From Caldilineaceae bacterium (GTDB lineage Bacteria > Chloroflexota > Anaerolineae > Caldilineales > Caldilineaceae), in the NCBI GenBank assembly GCA_026645575.1, contig JAPKMW010000014.1, positions 62,001 to 126,000 on the forward strand: DNA of 64,000 nt. Reading direction: 5' to 3'. Every line of letters begins with the position of its first letter. Within the stretch, counting starts at the first letter, position 1. This document shows, in pieces, positions 31,903 to 43,166 of the stretch. Position numbers and translations under genes: made by a program. The notes under the pieces were generated by a model that worked only from the letters and a program-made list of their open reading frames with translations, had not been told where the DNA came from and did no database searches.

Positions 31903-31909
31903 CACAGAC

Positions 31910-32015
31910 TTGAACTAAAGTTCAGGCTGAAAACATAAGTCCACTCAAGTGGACTGGTTCGTAATAAGCAGTCGGCTTGAGCCGACTTAAGCTTTTAGCC
32001 TGAACTTTAGTTCAA
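31910..32015 (+). terminator. Compound inverted repeat after the permeases
   Basis: Outer arms 31910-31928 and 31997-32015 (TTGAACTAAAGTTCAGGCT) are perfect 19-base complements. Inside are two smaller hairpins, AGTCCACTCAAGTGGACT and AAGTCGGCT-type arms, so the whole 106 bp can form a cloverleaf-like structure. It is not a tRNA. It may be a terminator or a REP/BIME-like element. Confidence 0.65.
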
Positions 32016-32122
32016 GGCGTTTCCCAAAAATAAGTCAAATGATGGATTGTTATGCACCCCTTCCTACTCTACACTGAATACAGCATTTAATGGTATACAG
32101 CAGTCGTAGAAGGAGCAACAAC

Positions 32123-33511
32123 ATGATATTCCCCAGACTCTATTTTTTACAGGAAGATGAACAACTCTTTGTGCGTGCCTTTACCCGCCGCTGGGTGGTC
32201 AATGGGCCGCGGCGTTATGTGACCCAGCCGCTATGGCGCGTAGTGCGCCGCAAAGCGCTGACCCTAGGCCCAACCCAGTATTTGGTGGTGCGCAACACAT
32301 TGACCGGCGAACTGCGCAACGAAGTTGGCCCCAAGCTCTTTTTTCTTGGCGCTGAGGATGAAGTTGTCCAGCAACAGGAGGCGTTGGCGCTCAAACATAA
32401 CCAGTATGCCCGTCTCTTTGATCAAAACAGCGGCAAGATCCGGGTTGAGCGGGGCGAAAAGACGGTTTATCTAGCACCCACCGAAAAGCTCGTAGGCGAT
32501 GTGCAGAACGGCATCAACTTGGATGAGCAGACTGCCGTGCTCGTGCGCGACACCAGCACTGGTCAATTAGCGCTGGTTCGCGACCAACAGGTCTTTGTCC
32601 CCACCGCCCATCAGGAGATTGTCGAGGTGCGCAAGCGCATTCGTCTGGAAGACAATGAGGCGCTGATCATCAAAGACATCAACGGTAAGTATCTCATCCG
32701 GCGCGGCGCCGATGCCGAACGTGCCTTCTTCCTCGGGCCGTATGATGAACTGCTGGAACTGCGTTGGTCCACCGGCATCCACAAAGATCGCATGGATCTG
32801 CGGATCAGCAAGTTTGATCTGCGCCCCAAGTTTATGTGGTACGAGTTCGAGGCGCGCACCCAGGACAATGTCGAGCTGGTGATCGGCATCACCTTCTTTT
32901 GGGAAATTGTTGACCTGGAGCGGATGATCAACACCACCAATGACACCCCCGGCGACCTCTGTTCCCACGCCCGCAGCGCCATTCTGCAAGCGATCTCCAA
33001 AGTGTCGCTGGAACAGTTCCTGGCCGGCTTCAACCAGATCATTCACGGCGCCATCTTTGGCGATGCCACTAACTTTTACAGTGAACGGGGGGTCAAACTC
33101 CATGCCGTTGAAGTGCGCTCGGTCGCCAGCAAAGATGTGCGCACCCAGCAGGTCTTGCAGGAGATCATCAACGAGACGACCAACCGCATTAACCGCCTGC
33201 AAAAACAGGAGAGCGAGAACGAAGTCAAGCTGAAACAACTGCACGGCGAGATCGAAACCGAACAACGGCGCGGCCAGTTGCTCGAACTGCGCCGGCAACA
33301 TGCCCAGACCGAAGGCACCATTGCCGGTGAGGCGGAAGCGCTACGGATCAATGCCTTTCTTGGTGGTCTGGGTGATGGCCTCGCCAACGAGCAGAAGCTG
33401 GCAATTTTCAACACCTTGCGCAAACAAGACGCCCTTACTGCGCTGAGCCACGGCAAGGCGCAACTCTACTTTACCCCTGCCGATGTTGATCTGACGATCC
33501 GCTCCGGTTAA
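32123..33511 (+). CDS. Major-vault-protein-like protein (compact, bacterial)
   Basis: 462 residues from ATG 32123, which follows AAGGAG; an in-frame ATG at 32090 lacks a ribosome site. Residues 1-218 form five repeats of about 43 residues, for example YLVVRNTLTGELRNEVGPKL/FFLGAEDEV (53-81), ARLFDQNSGKIRVERGEKTV (96-115) and AVLVRDTSTGQLAL (138-151). Residues 225-350 match the vault shoulder (band-7/SPFH-like) domain: FEARTQDNVELVIGITFFWE, then GVKLHAVEVRSVASKDVRTQ. A long charged helix follows (about 350-420), like the vault cap helix. Eukaryotic MVP has about nine repeats and 850-900 residues; this is roughly half. There is no signal peptide or membrane helix, so it is likely a cytoplasmic self-assembling protein. 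No other vault component is nearby. Confidence 0.8.
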   Translation: MIFPRLYFLQEDEQLFVRAFTRRWVVNGPRRYVTQPLWRVVRRKALTLGPTQYLVVRNTLTGELRNEVGPKLFFLGAEDEVVQQQEALALKHNQYARLFDQNSGKIRVERGEKTVYLAPTEKLVGDVQNGINLDEQTAVLVRDTSTGQLALVRDQQVFVPTAHQEIVEVRKRIRLEDNEALIIKDINGKYLIRRGADAERAFFLGPYDELLELRWSTGIHKDRMDLRISKFDLRPKFMWYEFEARTQDNVELVIGITFFWEIVDLERMINTTNDTPGDLCSHARSAILQAISKVSLEQFLAGFNQIIHGAIFGDATNFYSERGVKLHAVEVRSVASKDVRTQQVLQEIINETTNRINRLQKQESENEVKLKQLHGEIETEQRRGQLLELRRQHAQTEGTIAGEAEALRINAFLGGLGDGLANEQKLAIFNTLRKQDALTALSHGKAQLYFTPADVDLTIRSG

Positions 33512-33530: not shown

Positions 33531-33589
33531 CGGTAGTAAAGACTTTAGTCTTTGTACAGGCTGGGGAAAGACTAAAGTCTTTACTACCG
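33531..33589. repeat. Dispersed inverted repeat, copy 2
   Basis: Perfect 23-base arms at 33531-33553 and 33567-33589 (CGGTAGTAAAGACTTTAGTC... and its complement) around a 13-base loop. Each arm is itself nearly palindromic (AAAGACTTTAGTCTTT). It is related to the element at 17918-17975. Here it follows the vault-like gene and may end its transcript. Confidence 0.8.
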
Positions 33590-34972: not shown

Positions 34973-36637
34973 ATGATCAAACATTGGTTGAAAGGGTTGA
35001 TTGCTGTGGCGCTGTTGAGCTTGCTCTTCGCCACCATTCCACCTGTGCCACTGGCAGCGGCGACTGGGTATGGCGTCGGCGTTGAACAGGACGACGGTCA
35101 AGGTGATGATGGCCAGGGTGACGACGAGCAGGGTGATGACGAGCAGGGTGATGACGAGCAGGGTGATGACGAGCAGGATGACGGTAGTCAAGATGACAAC
35201 GGTCAAGACGGCAACACCCAAAATCAGGGTCAGCAAGGGCAACAAGGACAGCAGGGGCAGACCGGCCAGCAGGGTCAACAGCAAGGCGCCGGGCAGGATG
35301 CCTGTGCCAACCTAGTGGTTTTCAATAGCCAGAGCATGGGCCAGCAAAGCCAAGGCCAACAAGGTCAGGGCCAGCAGGGTCAATTGACTCAGCAAGGCCA
35401 GGGTCAACAGCAAAGTGACATGTTGATGGTCGGTGCCAGTCGTCGTACCGCCGGTTTCCCCACCAATTGTTGGGTGTCGCTGGGGCCGGATGAAACACAC
35501 TGGTATCAGTTCCGCTACCAGGGGCTTGTTGATGAAGATGACGGTATCAGTACGGCGGAAGAAGGTGATGATGAAGAGAGTACGCCCCAGACTTCCCAGT
35601 CGCCGACCGTCAATGCGCGCTTGCGTATGGACACGGCGGGCTGTGTTGATTTCATTGTGACAACGCCCCGCCGCCTACAAAATCCTGACCCTGATGATGA
35701 TGGCATTAACGAACCGGTGGGCGCCGGCACACCGGCCTTTATCATCGAAGAAGACGGGGATAATCGCGACGAGAGTGTGCTGAATTGGCAAGGTCGCGCC
35801 GAAGCGAATGTCAATTTCTACATCATTGTGTCGAATAACCGCGACTTCAACTGCGCTTACAACCTTTCCTTGACCGGTTCCGCCGTTCCGGTGCAAGGCC
35901 AACAACAAGGGCTGCAAGGACAAGGCCAGCAGGTCCAACAGAGCCAGCCACAAAATCAGCAACAAGGCCAGCAACAGAATCAGCAACAGAATCAGCAACA
36001 GCAGCAGAATCAACAGAATCAGTTGTCAGCCTGTGGCATTGGGAGCGATACCAGCACGGCAGGTTTCCCCACCGGTTGTTGGGTCGCCTTGAATCCAAAT
36101 GAAACCCACTGGTATCAATTCCGCTACCAGGGCCTGAATATCGGCGCGAATGCTGATGACGATGAAGACGATGACAGTACAACCACGGATACCCAACCCG
36201 ATACGGTGACGGCGCGCTTGCAAATGGATACCGCCGGCTGTGTCGCCTTTCAGGTGATGACGCCCCGTCTCTTACAGAACCCTGACCCCGACGATGACGA
36301 TATTAACGAACCGGTCGGCGTCGGTTCACCGGTCGTGATCCAGAATGATGATGACGATAGCGATAACCGCGACCGAACTGAACTCGTCTGGCAAGGTAGC
36401 GGTGATACCAATACGTCCTTCTACATCATCGTCAGAAACACGCGCGACTTCAGTTGTACCTATAGTCTTTCTCTTGAAGGCGCCGGCGTGCCGGCGCCCG
36501 GCCAGCAGGGGCAGCAGAGTCAACAGGATCAACTGAACCAGCAAAATCAAGGTCAGCAAAATCAAGGTCAGCAAAATCAGCAAGATGATCAACCCGTTGA
36601 TGACCAAAATGATGATCAAGATGGGGAAGATGGTTAA
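34973..36637 (+). CDS. Secreted Asp/Gln-rich protein with two duplicated domains
   Basis: Not a named family. 554 residues: signal peptide (about 1-30, GLIAVALLSLLFATIPPVPLAA), an acidic repeat region with GDDEQ repeated four times, a Gln/Gly-rich region of QQGQ units, then two copies of a domain of about 145 residues (about 158-303 and 361-505) joined by a second Gln-rich linker, and an Asp/Gln tail. Each domain has CWVxLxPxETHWYQFRYQG, ARLxMDTAGCVxF, QNPDPDDD.INEPVG and FYIIVxNxRDFxCxYxLSL, with paired cysteines; the layout resembles bacterial pre-peptidase C-terminal (PPC) beta-sandwiches. Acidic loops suggest calcium binding. A matrix or cell-surface role is likely. A strong terminator follows. 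Confidence 0.7.
   Translation: MIKHWLKGLIAVALLSLLFATIPPVPLAAATGYGVGVEQDDGQGDDGQGDDEQGDDEQGDDEQGDDEQDDGSQDDNGQDGNTQNQGQQGQQGQQGQTGQQGQQQGAGQDACANLVVFNSQSMGQQSQGQQGQGQQGQLTQQGQGQQQSDMLMVGASRRTAGFPTNCWVSLGPDETHWYQFRYQGLVDEDDGISTAEEGDDEESTPQTSQSPTVNARLRMDTAGCVDFIVTTPRRLQNPDPDDDGINEPVGAGTPAFIIEEDGDNRDESVLNWQGRAEANVNFYIIVSNNRDFNCAYNLSLTGSAVPVQGQQQGLQGQGQQVQQSQPQNQQQGQQQNQQQNQQQQQNQQNQLSACGIGSDTSTAGFPTGCWVALNPNETHWYQFRYQGLNIGANADDDEDDDSTTTDTQPDTVTARLQMDTAGCVAFQVMTPRLLQNPDPDDDDINEPVGVGSPVVIQNDDDDSDNRDRTELVWQGSGDTNTSFYIIVRNTRDFSCTYSLSLEGAGVPAPGQQGQQSQQDQLNQQNQGQQNQGQQNQQDDQPVDDQNDDQDGEDG
35117..35176 (+). repeat. 15-bp coding tandem repeat (GDDEQ x4)
   Basis: GGTGATGACGAGCAG occurs four times (first copy GGTGACGACGAGCAG), encoding GDDEQ repeats in the acidic part of the secreted protein. 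The near-identity of the DNA copies points to recent slippage. Confidence 0.9.
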
Positions 36638-39285: not shown

Positions 39286-42200
39286 TTACCGCTTAACTAC
39301 CGGCAGGAAAAGCTGCTGTTTTACCTCGCCACTCTGACTATCGAGATAATCTGGAATGCCATCCTGGTCGCTATCGACTGGTTGCACCGGATTATTCCCC
39401 ACTTCATCTTTATCCAGTTTCCCATCCCCATCGGCATCGGCATCAAGGAAATTGGGAATGTTGTCGCCATCAATATCACCAGCTTTCTCCTGATTATCGG
39501 GAATGGTGTCGCCGTCGCTGTCATCGGTGGGGCCGGCAATGCGGACGGTGGCGGCAGTACGGGCAACATTGGTGGTCGGCGCTGCCAATGTCTGTGCAGC
39601 GCTGCTTGCGACTGTCCAGGTGGCGATGTTGGTGGTGCTAATCGTTAGCGTTTGGGTAAAGGTAACGGAGAAGGCTGTTCCCGGCGCCACTGGATGGACA
39701 TGGTTGGTGAGCAACTGCCCCAGGTGACTATCGACCAATGAATGGCTCGTCAACGGCGTGTCGCCGATGTTGCGTAGCGTATAACAGTAAACAATTGTCG
39801 TGCCGACCGGCGCATGGATTTCACCCACTGGCGTACAGAGCGGCTTGATCCCCGCCATGCCGACCGTCTTGTGAAAGGTGAACGGATTGACGGCAACCGT
39901 CACCGTGGCGACGGCGGAAGCACCCAGATTGTCGGTGACCTGATAGGTGAAGCTGTCACTTGTTGCAGCGTCGCCACCGTGGGTGTAGGTGAAGGCGCCA
40001 TTGGCGTTAATGGTCACGCTGCCGTGAACCGGCCCGGTTTTGAGCGTGGCTGTCAGCACGCTGCTGTCCGGATCGCTGTCGTTGGCGAGTAGACTCTTTG
40101 CCCCCGAATCTAACATGGTCACACTTTGTCCACGGCTAACGGTTGCGCTATCGTTAGCGGCAACCGGCGGATCATTGACCGGTTGAATGGTGATCATTAC
40201 TCTGCCAATGTTCGATTGTTGGCTCCCATCACTCACTCTATAAGTGAAAAAGTCATTGGTGGCTTCGTCACCGTTATGTGTGTAGCTGAAAGTTCCGTCT
40301 GAGTTCAAGTTCAAGAGACCATGATTAGGCATTGCCACGACCGTAGCCTGTAAGGGGCCGGCTTCCGAGCGATCATTATCGAGTACCCGATTAAAGCCGG
40401 AGGCAAGAAGATTGGCGGTTGCTCCTTCTTCGACAACAATCTCGTCATCCTGGGCAAAAGGCGGCCAGAGCAAGGGATTCGCTGGTAATTGCATGTTGAT
40501 CTCTGTCACCGTTATCTCAGGCGTCACGCTGATGGTGGCGGCATTTTCAAGGTAACCGACTTGAGAATAATACCCTGCATGATAGGTGTTGCTATAGTCT
40601 TGGAAGCCAACTCGGTATAAACCTGATCCTAAGCCTGGGCTGCTATAGACGCCGTTGAAGTCAGTCTGCGCTGAGCCAGCAGGGTACCACTGTGCGTTGT
40701 TGGAATCGTTTGGAAGATAGAGGTAAAAGCTAACGGCAATATTAGTAAGTGGCTCCCCATTTGCATTTGTAACGCGTCCACTCAGTCGGCCAGGGCGACC
40801 CAATTCTGCATCAATGTGTAAAGTGGCCTCACCTTCACGAACAACAATATCAGTTGCGTCGTCAATCATTGCTGCATTATCATAGAACTCTCCGGCAAAT
40901 GCCTCTGGCGGATGCATAACAGCAAAACCAACGCGATAGGTCTCTGGTGTGAGCCCGCTGAGGCTATAATCCCCACGCTGATCGGTACGGGTGTTAGCAA
41001 TTTGTTGCCATGAAGATTGTTGCTGCGAAGGGAATAGCCGCCAAGCACTGACCATAATATTGGGAATTGCAGCGCCATTGCGATCGGTCACGCGACCATC
41101 AATGCGCGCTTTATCAGCCAGCACGGCGGTGACAGTAACGGTCGCCTCTTCGGTAACGGTAATATTTGTAGCTGTAGTAAGGTCAGGGGCATTGTCGTAA
41201 AATTCACCAACATAGCGGTCTGGGTCGCGCCCGTCCTCAAATTGAATTCGATAACGACCGGGTCTTACACCCATGACATAGGCGTCTTGAATTCTGTCGG
41301 GATAGATGTAGGTGTTATACCACGCGCCGTTACCCACCGGGGAATAGCGGTAGAGGGTTACGCTAAGGTCAGCAATGGGCTGATTCTGCTGGTTCGTTAC
41401 GCGACTAATCAACGTACTGGGGCGGCTAAGTTGTGCATCAATCCCGGTCGTGGTTAGCTCGGCTGTGACTGTCACCAGAGTAACGTCATCAAGGGATGAT
41501 TTGTAATCATAGTAAATATTGTTGTAATACTCACCCAGATACCGATTTTGCGTATCATTGAAACGCAAACGATAACTATCCGCGTCTAAACAACAGAGCG
41601 TATATTCACCGTTGACGTTAGAGCGGGTAAAACGCACCACCTCCCAGCGATTGACGGGCAGGCTGATGTCACGCATCTCGGCCGTGACTTCAACCTGATT
41701 GAGCGGTTCACCCTGGCGGTTGGTGATCCTGCCCGCAATCCCGCCCCGTAAAGCAAGTTGTGCATTGATGTTGGTCGTGGTTGTGTTGAGGGTAACGGTG
41801 AGGAGGGTAGCAGCCTTCGGGTCAAACGTATTGTTGTAATATTCTCTGCTGTATTTCCGTTCTTGTGTATCACTGAAGCGAACGCGATAGGTTCCTTCCA
41901 TTAAACCACCTAAAATGTAATTCCCCGCAATGTCTGTCACGGCGAAAGCGCGATCATGCCACACCTCGCCGATTTCCTCAATGCTGCTTTGTTGCGCAGT
42001 CAACTGAATACTGGCAAGTGGGTGATTCTGAGCATCAGTGACTTTGCCTGTGATAAAACCTAGGTGATTCAACTGCATGTTGATGTTATTAATAATCTGA
42101 TCAGTTGCAACCATAATCAAGGTCGCATTTTCCCGTTCGAGGGCGTTGTTGAAGTATCCTGTACGATAGATGGGTGGTTGACGTGTATCTTCAAAGGCAA

Positions 42201-42768
42201 TCCGGTAGTTACCCGCCATTAAGTTGCGGATCTCATAATTGCCACTGGCATCCGTTTCAAAGGTAGTTTGAAAACTATTGTTGTTATCGAACGCAAAGAC
42301 CCTAATATTGGACAGTGCTTTCCCTTGCAAATCCGTCACTTTCCCCTGAATATGGGCGCCGGAAGAAAGTCTGGCATTAATATTGCTGATGGTTGCGCCT
42401 GCTGCTAAAGGAATATCGGTTGCGCTGAATTGGTCGGCGGCGTTGTTATAGAATTCAGCAAAATAGCCTGGTACAGGGAAAACTTCGTTAAAACTAATGT
42501 GGTAGGTGCCAGCATTGAGGTTGGGGATTGTGTAGTTCCCTGTGTCATCGGTTGTTGCCTGTCCGGCATAGGTCCACACGATGATACCGGTAATATCTTC
42601 TTTGTAATAGGCGCGTACTGTCACATTTGCCAGCGCCGTATTGCCGTCGCCAGTGACTTTGCCGAGGATAATGCCGGTGCTTTGGGCCGTGGCAACCCAG
42701 CCATAGCCAAACAGAATGGCGAAAATGACAACAGTGCTGATACTGCACCAAACCAATACCCGTCGCAT
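39286..42768 (-). CDS. Large secreted surface protein with seven CarboxypepD_reg-like repeats
   Basis: 1160 residues from ATG 42768, which follows GGAGG. A signal peptide (LVWCSISTVVIFAILFGYGW, to about 30) is followed by seven Ig-like repeats of 95-100 residues, each opening like GKVTDLQGKALSNIRVFAFD and closing like EFYNNAxD...ATxIxVTxxTxxxINAQL. Next come two cadherin-like/Big_9 repeats (GTFSYTHNGDEATNDFFTYR, GAFTYTHGGDAATSDSFTYQ), a DUF11-like adhesion domain, thrombospondin type 3-like calcium loops (DSDGDTIPDNQEK, DADADGDGKLDKDE, DSDQDGIPDYLD) and the terminal sequence QLFLPVVKR. No enzyme domain is present. It probably forms a fibre or adhesin on the cell surface. A consensus promoter lies at 42970-42998. 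Confidence 0.85.
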   Translation of the reverse strand: MRRVLVWCSISTVVIFAILFGYGWVATAQSTGIILGKVTGDGNTALANVTVRAYYKEDITGIIVWTYAGQATTDDTGNYTIPNLNAGTYHISFNEVFPVPGYFAEFYNNAADQFSATDIPLAAGATISNINARLSSGAHIQGKVTDLQGKALSNIRVFAFDNNNSFQTTFETDASGNYEIRNLMAGNYRIAFEDTRQPPIYRTGYFNNALERENATLIMVATDQIINNINMQLNHLGFITGKVTDAQNHPLASIQLTAQQSSIEEIGEVWHDRAFAVTDIAGNYILGGLMEGTYRVRFSDTQERKYSREYYNNTFDPKAATLLTVTLNTTTTNINAQLALRGGIAGRITNRQGEPLNQVEVTAEMRDISLPVNRWEVVRFTRSNVNGEYTLCCLDADSYRLRFNDTQNRYLGEYYNNIYYDYKSSLDDVTLVTVTAELTTTGIDAQLSRPSTLISRVTNQQNQPIADLSVTLYRYSPVGNGAWYNTYIYPDRIQDAYVMGVRPGRYRIQFEDGRDPDRYVGEFYDNAPDLTTATNITVTEEATVTVTAVLADKARIDGRVTDRNGAAIPNIMVSAWRLFPSQQQSSWQQIANTRTDQRGDYSLSGLTPETYRVGFAVMHPPEAFAGEFYDNAAMIDDATDIVVREGEATLHIDAELGRPGRLSGRVTNANGEPLTNIAVSFYLYLPNDSNNAQWYPAGSAQTDFNGVYSSPGLGSGLYRVGFQDYSNTYHAGYYSQVGYLENAATISVTPEITVTEINMQLPANPLLWPPFAQDDEIVVEEGATANLLASGFNRVLDNDRSEAGPLQATVVAMPNHGLLNLNSDGTFSYTHNGDEATNDFFTYRVSDGSQQSNIGRVMITIQPVNDPPVAANDSATVSRGQSVTMLDSGAKSLLANDSDPDSSVLTATLKTGPVHGSVTINANGAFTYTHGGDAATSDSFTYQVTDNLGASAVATVTVAVNPFTFHKTVGMAGIKPLCTPVGEIHAPVGTTIVYCYTLRNIGDTPLTSHSLVDSHLGQLLTNHVHPVAPGTAFSVTFTQTLTISTTNIATWTVASSAAQTLAAPTTNVARTAATVRIAGPTDDSDGDTIPDNQEKAGDIDGDNIPNFLDADADGDGKLDKDEVGNNPVQPVDSDQDGIPDYLDSQSGEVKQQLFLPVVKR

Positions 42769-43166
42769 GGGCAATCCCTCCGTTGCATAGAATGTAAAAG
42801 TAGAAGAAACGCATTGAGTGAAGTGGGTCAACAACGTCGCAAGGAAAACAGGCCTGACGGTCGCAGGCCCTATGGTGCTTCCCTTGATTGAGCAACTGCA
42901 AACCACAGTGGCTAGATAGCGATGAAGGTTGATGTGACCGGTGGATGTGAACAGTTAACAACTTTATCTATGATAACGAGCTTGTAAGCTTTTGTCAAAT
43001 AGGACAAGGTAATTGTAATTGAAATTACCAATTTCGGCGTAGTATATACTGGACGCGGTTGGCTCTTGTCCGTTCTTTACCTCCCTGACTCCACAGTTGG
43101 GCGAAATCTGTCCCTTCCTAGTATAATAAATTGTAGACAACTGCAATTCTTGTAAGCCCAGCCGAC
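42769..43166. other. 398-bp divergent intergenic region
   Basis: Holds the minus-strand promoter at 42970-42998, a small inverted repeat GGTAATT...AATTACC near 43009-43030, and a forward TATAAT at 43122-43127 with a weak TTGGGC 19 bases before it, which may serve the TPR-AAA gene. No RNA gene seen. Confidence 0.5.
42970..42998 (-). promoter_or_regulatory. Promoter of the large surface protein gene
   Basis: On the minus strand TTGACA (42993-42998), exactly 17 bases, TATCAT (42970-42975). The leader before the ATG at 42768 is about 195 bases. Confidence 0.65.

Follow-up and report, generated by a model that had tools for sequence, protein, structure and literature searches.

A gene at 32123..33511 (+) in a 64,000-nucleotide (nt) stretch of DNA from a Caldilineaceae bacterium (GCA_026645575.1, contig JAPKMW010000014.1, positions 62,001–126,000; here called the window, to whose numbering unlabelled coordinates refer) codes for a bacterial relative, about half as long, of the major vault protein (MVP), the protein from which animal cells build vaults, giant hollow particles made of two 39-fold halves joined at the waist. 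The open reading frame is intact (462 amino acids (aa) plus stop). With five repeats, 462 aa and a position outside the canonical clade, its product does not class as an orthologue of canonical MVP; it belongs to a family, hereafter compact MVP, that is scattered over bacteria and protists and is not an isolated oddity.

Domain architecture and homology to MVP

The protein starts with five repeats: R1 (residues 1–38, 32123..32236), the most divergent, which our repeat hidden Markov model (HMM) does not count; R2 (39–80, 32237..32362), seen in the predicted structure, in self-comparison and by the repeat HMM; R3 (81–122, 32363..32488), with a Pfam Vault_3 match at residues 90–123 that stays under the cutoff; and R4 (123–165, 32489..32617) and R5 (166–210, 32618..32752), both seen in the predicted structure and by the repeat HMM. 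A shoulder/SPFH domain follows (211–337, 32753..33133), delimited by Pfam, the predicted structure and structural alignment, and having the SPFH fold. The predicted structure then places a long cap-type helix of 77 residues (339–415, 33137..33367), a second helix (422–443, 33386..33451) and a conserved C-terminal tail (..LYFTPADVDL.., 33452..33508).

The preliminary description, made from sequence alone, had proposed five repeats, a shoulder and a cap helix in the MVP order at about half the MVP length, and each of these proposals holds. The summed pairwise score of the five repeats is 320, compared with 186 ± 12 (maximum 229) for 1000 shuffles, and the predicted structure contains five beta modules. 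The order of repeats, shoulder and cap helix agrees with that of MVP by Pfam, phmmer, profile search and structure alike. The Pfam MVP_shoulder model scores 29 bits (cutoff 25) in the window protein, Vault_3 stays below its cutoff (24.2 bits, cutoff 28.8), and PF01505 and PF17794 give no match there up to E 10, both being strong in the canonical cyanobacterial MVP L039. Among PDB chains, phmmer finds MVP at 8e-10 and the next non-MVP chain at 0.24; a search with the family profile finds MVP at 2.9e-22 and the next other chain at 0.088. At E 1e-3, MVP_shoulder is found in 48/48 family members and Vault_3 in 31/48. Aligned by HHalign with ten canonical MVPs, the whole family profile matches at probability 99 and E 9.5e-18.

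Which part of the protein carries this likeness was further dissected by aligning repeats and shoulder separately. The repeats alone match canonical MVP (probability 97, E 4.2e-11) and find no real match in three stomatin-like rows (probability 0.4); reversed controls reach at most 2.5, and 1.5 for the repeats. The preliminary description had named matches to SPFH proteins alone, with no MVP-repeat match, as one outcome that would count against it, and the repeat alignment is the opposite of that outcome. The shoulder-helix region alone is nearly as close to stomatin (1.3e-9, three stomatin rows only) as to MVP (1.8e-10), and a plain shoulder-helix HMM scores 24–38 bits for the ten canonical MVPs against 30–32 for the three stomatins. 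From these HHalign and plain HMM scores, it is the repeats that tell MVP from stomatins and not the shoulder, which corrects the earlier view that vault likeness is strongest in shoulder and helix.

The same data bear on a reading in which the family is a usual SPFH scaffold whose N-terminus has become elaborate and rich in beta structure; its repeat likeness to MVP would then say nothing about cage building. It draws on the nearness of the shoulder region to stomatins (P0185 scores 28.9 bits with the plain HMM, set against 30–32), on a Band_7 match in 35/48 family members and on the very long branches that lead to canonical MVP and stomatin alike. Also in favour of this reading, the compact-repeat HMM picks up no more than two stretches per protein in two canonical MVPs (6.1 and 22.9 bits in P0185, 29.8 and 57.4 bits in L039). 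The stronger L039 match, however, equals the family's own repeats in score, and neither the repeat preference for MVP over stomatin nor the presence of MVP_shoulder throughout the family fits a mere scaffold, so that we regard this explanation as improbable.

Repeat number and conservation

Repeat-HMM matches were counted in 121 proteins (P0001–P0121), comprising 120 listed database proteins and the window protein. Four matches occur in 91 proteins, five in 7, six in 18, seven in 1, eight in 3 and ten in 1; with the uncounted R1 added, the family repeat number ranges from 5 to 11. P0006 carries two extra repeats compared with its close counterpart P0011, and 75/85 residues of its segment 161–245 recur unchanged when the sequence is shifted by 85, a pattern that looks as it would after a two-repeat duplication. 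These counts and this pair indicate that wall length varies while shoulder and helix remain.

Conservation was expressed as weighted information content over 48 sequences and 11 segments. The N-terminal nine residues rank first of all (3.55 bits/column), followed by the shoulder (3.20), the C-terminal tail (3.15) and the first half of the helix (3.11); the repeats (2.5–2.8) and the second half of the helix (2.30) lie lower. The tail reaches its value at residues 444–459, yet has a predicted local distance difference test (pLDDT) score below 50 at 445–462 in the monomer model. The N-terminal nonapeptide, MIFPRLYFL in the window protein (32123..32149; family form M[LI][IF]P[WR]xYFL), is hydrophobic at 8.5 of 9 residues in the 78 sequences with exactly nine residues ahead of the motif, the motif itself being matched in 91/121.

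Canonical MVP in cyanobacteria and two apparent MVP lineages

In Oscillatoria sp. PCC 10802 and O. princeps the compact gene is accompanied, elsewhere in the genome, by a canonical MVP gene (L039:3181-5847 in Oscillatoria sp. PCC 10802 and L040:3307-5973; 888 residues each), and a third cyanobacterial genome encodes an 880-residue canonical MVP (L043). L039, the only one scanned, matches all five MVP Pfam models (PF01505, PF11978, PF17794, PF17795 and PF17796).

In a tree built on the shoulder-helix region only, ten canonical rows, three of them cyanobacterial and grouping with vertebrate MVP, form their own clade (100/98). Compact rows from bacteria and the protist rows stand separate from this clade, but the fork between the groups is unresolved and the canonical rows hang from it among compact rows; the branches that lead to canonical and stomatin rows measure about 5–6 changes per site, and the bootstrap had not settled. 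Because of these long branches, the fork, the restriction to shoulder and helix and the unsettled bootstrap, the tree does not settle which is the nearer relative. A second tree, which left out L044 and L045 for their very long branches, places compact and protist rows on one side of a branch with a Shimodaira–Hasegawa-like approximate likelihood ratio test (SH-aLRT) value of 93 that was not starred. The two omitted proteins (401 and 815 aa), from the cyanobacterial phylum, combine SPFH and MVP-like stretches; they align with the family at HHalign probability 97 and 98 and fit the compact and canonical groups poorly.

Given the separate grouping and the occurrence of both genes in Oscillatoria, bacteria seem, from sequence comparison, to hold two MVP lineages. 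Half length, best structural alignment with the second half of MVP and the full-length genes of some cyanobacteria could also describe a decayed or truncated copy of a full-length MVP acquired from eukaryotes. Such an origin is very hard to reconcile with the separate, long-branched canonical clade, the split in the second tree, the strong conservation of both protein ends, a repeat number that ranges so widely and the coexistence of both genes in two Oscillatoria genomes, and we consider it highly improbable.

Distribution of the compact family

Rarity, as the preliminary description had it, stands in one sense only. The protein is far from alone, as 414 database proteins pass E 1e-3 against it (7996 candidates scored in the first search, 120 of the 414 listed); the compact form is nevertheless carried by few genomes, with full-length matches in 10/301 from Chloroflexota, where 16 match overall, six of them through the SPFH region only. 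The corresponding numbers are 2/292 in the phylum of Oscillatoria PCC 10802 (15 match overall) and 1/36 in the order of genome G022 (5 match overall, including one 138-residue piece). This piece, an open frame at G638:C3:114077-114460, matches the family helix and tail only and is a possible gene remnant. Among the matches listed, the closest relatives of the window protein are 96, 93, 89 and 82% identical; the closest that bear an organism name are Chloroflexota at 69%, which makes this phylum the probable source of the window.

Scanning genomes that bear organism names turned up 30 loci in a patchy spread over phyla. By record title, the Chloroflexota carriers include Herpetosiphon, Oscillochloris, Anaerolineae and others, and the remaining carriers are Cyanobacteria, Riflebacteria, Ozemobacter, Cloacimonadota, Muiribacteriota, a Sericytochromatia bin and one bin titled Erysipelotrichia. 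Comparison of the neighbourhoods of family loci revealed no conserved partner gene beside the compact MVP gene. The partners of vaults are TEP1, which includes a TROVE domain, PARP4 and vault RNA; TROVE occurs in 9/30 carrier genomes (4 of 9 Herpetosiphon) versus 2/20 hand-picked non-carriers (Fisher p 0.16). In one cyanobacterial bin, a Ro60-like gene (TROVE plus vWA_Ro60; L022:7090-8676, –) lies two genes upstream of compact MVP, and no such neighbour stands beside the other compact MVP copies examined.

A proposed open dome on the membrane

How compact MVP assembles, meets the membrane and functions we infer from these features. We propose, at slightly less than even confidence, that about 24 subunits form an open dome in which the number of repeats determines how high the wall is and the hydrophobic N-terminal rim is turned towards the membrane. 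Neighbouring copies would pack laterally through the conserved helix start and shoulder, and the layout would run from a helix dome through an SPFH ring and a short repeat cylinder to the N-termini at the rim. The repeats would stack as staves of the cylindrical wall, the conserved C-terminal strand would line the apex, and at the rim the dome's open side would sit on the cytoplasmic membrane. The likely role would be that of a protein bell-jar that closes off a patch of membrane or a cargo in the manner of SPFH domes, the repeats adding headroom relative to those domes. The subunit number comes from a regression of subunits on helix length (PMC12624060, section 12), by which a 77-residue helix gives 23.9 subunits.

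The alternative is a closed mini-vault: just as the half-vaults of eukaryotes join at R1, two half-cages would meet at their N-terminal rims and form a small cage that lies free in the cytoplasm. The MVP order seen by structure and profile suits it, as do the rim being the best conserved segment and the first 70 residues of P0001–P0121 holding no transmembrane-like segment, the conserved nonapeptide standing there instead. The halves of full-length MVP join at R1 through Asn22, Gln38, Asp39, Asn40 and Arg42 (PMC13347060). In a gap-free placement made by eye on the GP common to both, compact R1 (GPRRYVTQPLWRV) retains Gln38 and Arg42 of canonical R1 (GPKTYIRQDNERV) but has Pro and Leu for Asp39 and Asn40 and Ala for Asn22. 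On this by-eye placement the Asp39–Arg42 bridge cannot form, since Asp39 is replaced by Pro, and this Pro (P36) is near-invariant across the family. The best structural alignment begins at MVP residue 214, well beyond MVP R1, a further difficulty for joining at that repeat, even though the compact repeats can be aligned with MVP R1–R7 fragments too, with a lower Z (12.2–12.8).

The protist branch bears on the same choice. A transmembrane-like segment was found in 12/180 proteins, and those placed in the tree all fall in this branch, where relatives including one from Symbiodinium carry the helix directly ahead of the first repeat, at the end where the mini-vault would have its joint. The label "protist" is ours: 7/18 rows are of eukaryotic source (eukprot or mmetsp), and the remainder are unlabelled metagenome proteins. 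Three proteins of the branch without such a helix (P0153, P0162 and P0176) start with MGC, MGNMCC or MSCLYC, which we take to be possible lipid-anchor signals. In other SPFH domes, parts ahead of the SPFH domain bind membrane (PMC13100048). Because of this precedent and the transmembrane-like helix at the same place in the protist branch, our analysis favours the open membrane dome over the closed mini-vault, which we judge unlikely.

Gene start and surroundings

The start at ATG 32123 is supported by a Shine-Dalgarno-like AAGGAG (32110..32115, +) 7 nt upstream and by agreement with the family N-terminus, P4 being present in 78/78 nine-residue N-termini. An in-frame ATG at 32090, 33 bases farther upstream, was rejected, as it fails to match the family N-terminus. 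On both sides the gene is flanked by a long inverted repeat, intergenic and with ACTAAAGT at its core, upstream at 31909..32016 (arms 51 nt, 84% complementary) and downstream at 33531..33589 (arms 23 nt, 100% complementary); ACTAAAGT occurs in 7 copies in the window, compared with 0.56 expected. The neighbours are oligopeptide-type transport genes and, on the other side, a gene of the dihydrodipicolinate-synthase family. Elsewhere in the window are a 554-aa open reading frame (34973-36637, +) for which Pfam gave no match at E 1e-5 and a 1206-aa protein (39286-42906, –) that combines carboxypeptidase-regulatory with cadherin-like domains.

Relation to known systems and implications

Canonical MVP (about 850–890 aa; vertebrate proteins and cyanobacterial L039, L040 and L043) shares with the compact form the repeats, the shoulder, the long cap helix and their order. 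It differs in having nine described repeats, including Vault and Vault_2 types, against five (5–11 in the family), in its ends and in its separate clade; by our arithmetic, the regression of PMC12624060 implies a helix of about 160 residues for the 39-mer, compared with 77. By eye, the compact tail resembles both the canonical LITDG..PINLF and the stomatin end ..KVVFMDP... Relative to SPFH domes (stomatin, prohibitin, HflK/C, QmcA, flotillin and erlin), the compact protein adds five MVP repeats before the SPFH domain, and the bacterial members lack a transmembrane-like segment near the N-terminus. The Borg subfam0795 proteins (PMC9879509), likened here by their Pfam domains, share Vault_3 and MVP_shoulder in a prokaryotic setting.

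PMC9778704 calls vaults absent from prokaryotic cells, and PMC13100048 calls MVP domains unique to the vault; a number of putative MVP homologues in bacteria are mentioned in PMC7916137 (its reference 19). Bacterial MVP homologues are already in print, and the compact form is a variant among them. The reference behind that mention is presumably a 2013 paper on MVP ancestry. No study of the compact bacterial family was found among the top literature matches, a coverage outside which most subscription papers fall.

Compact MVPs might be membrane-standing half-vaults, SPFH domes raised on an MVP-repeat wall whose height evolves by repeat duplication, and thus a missing intermediate that connects SPFH domes on membranes with the free, closed eukaryotic vault, a tentative idea that we rate as doubtful but not far-fetched. 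If it is true, the earliest vault walls arose on membranes and the joined double cage was a later invention. Since its wall modules are those of the vault at variable length and it is present in named Herpetosiphon and Oscillatoria strains, this small bacterial family offers a simple system in which repeat-wall assembly, the membrane placement of vault-type cages and the origin of the vault can be addressed, and compact MVP could serve as a size-tunable protein cage.
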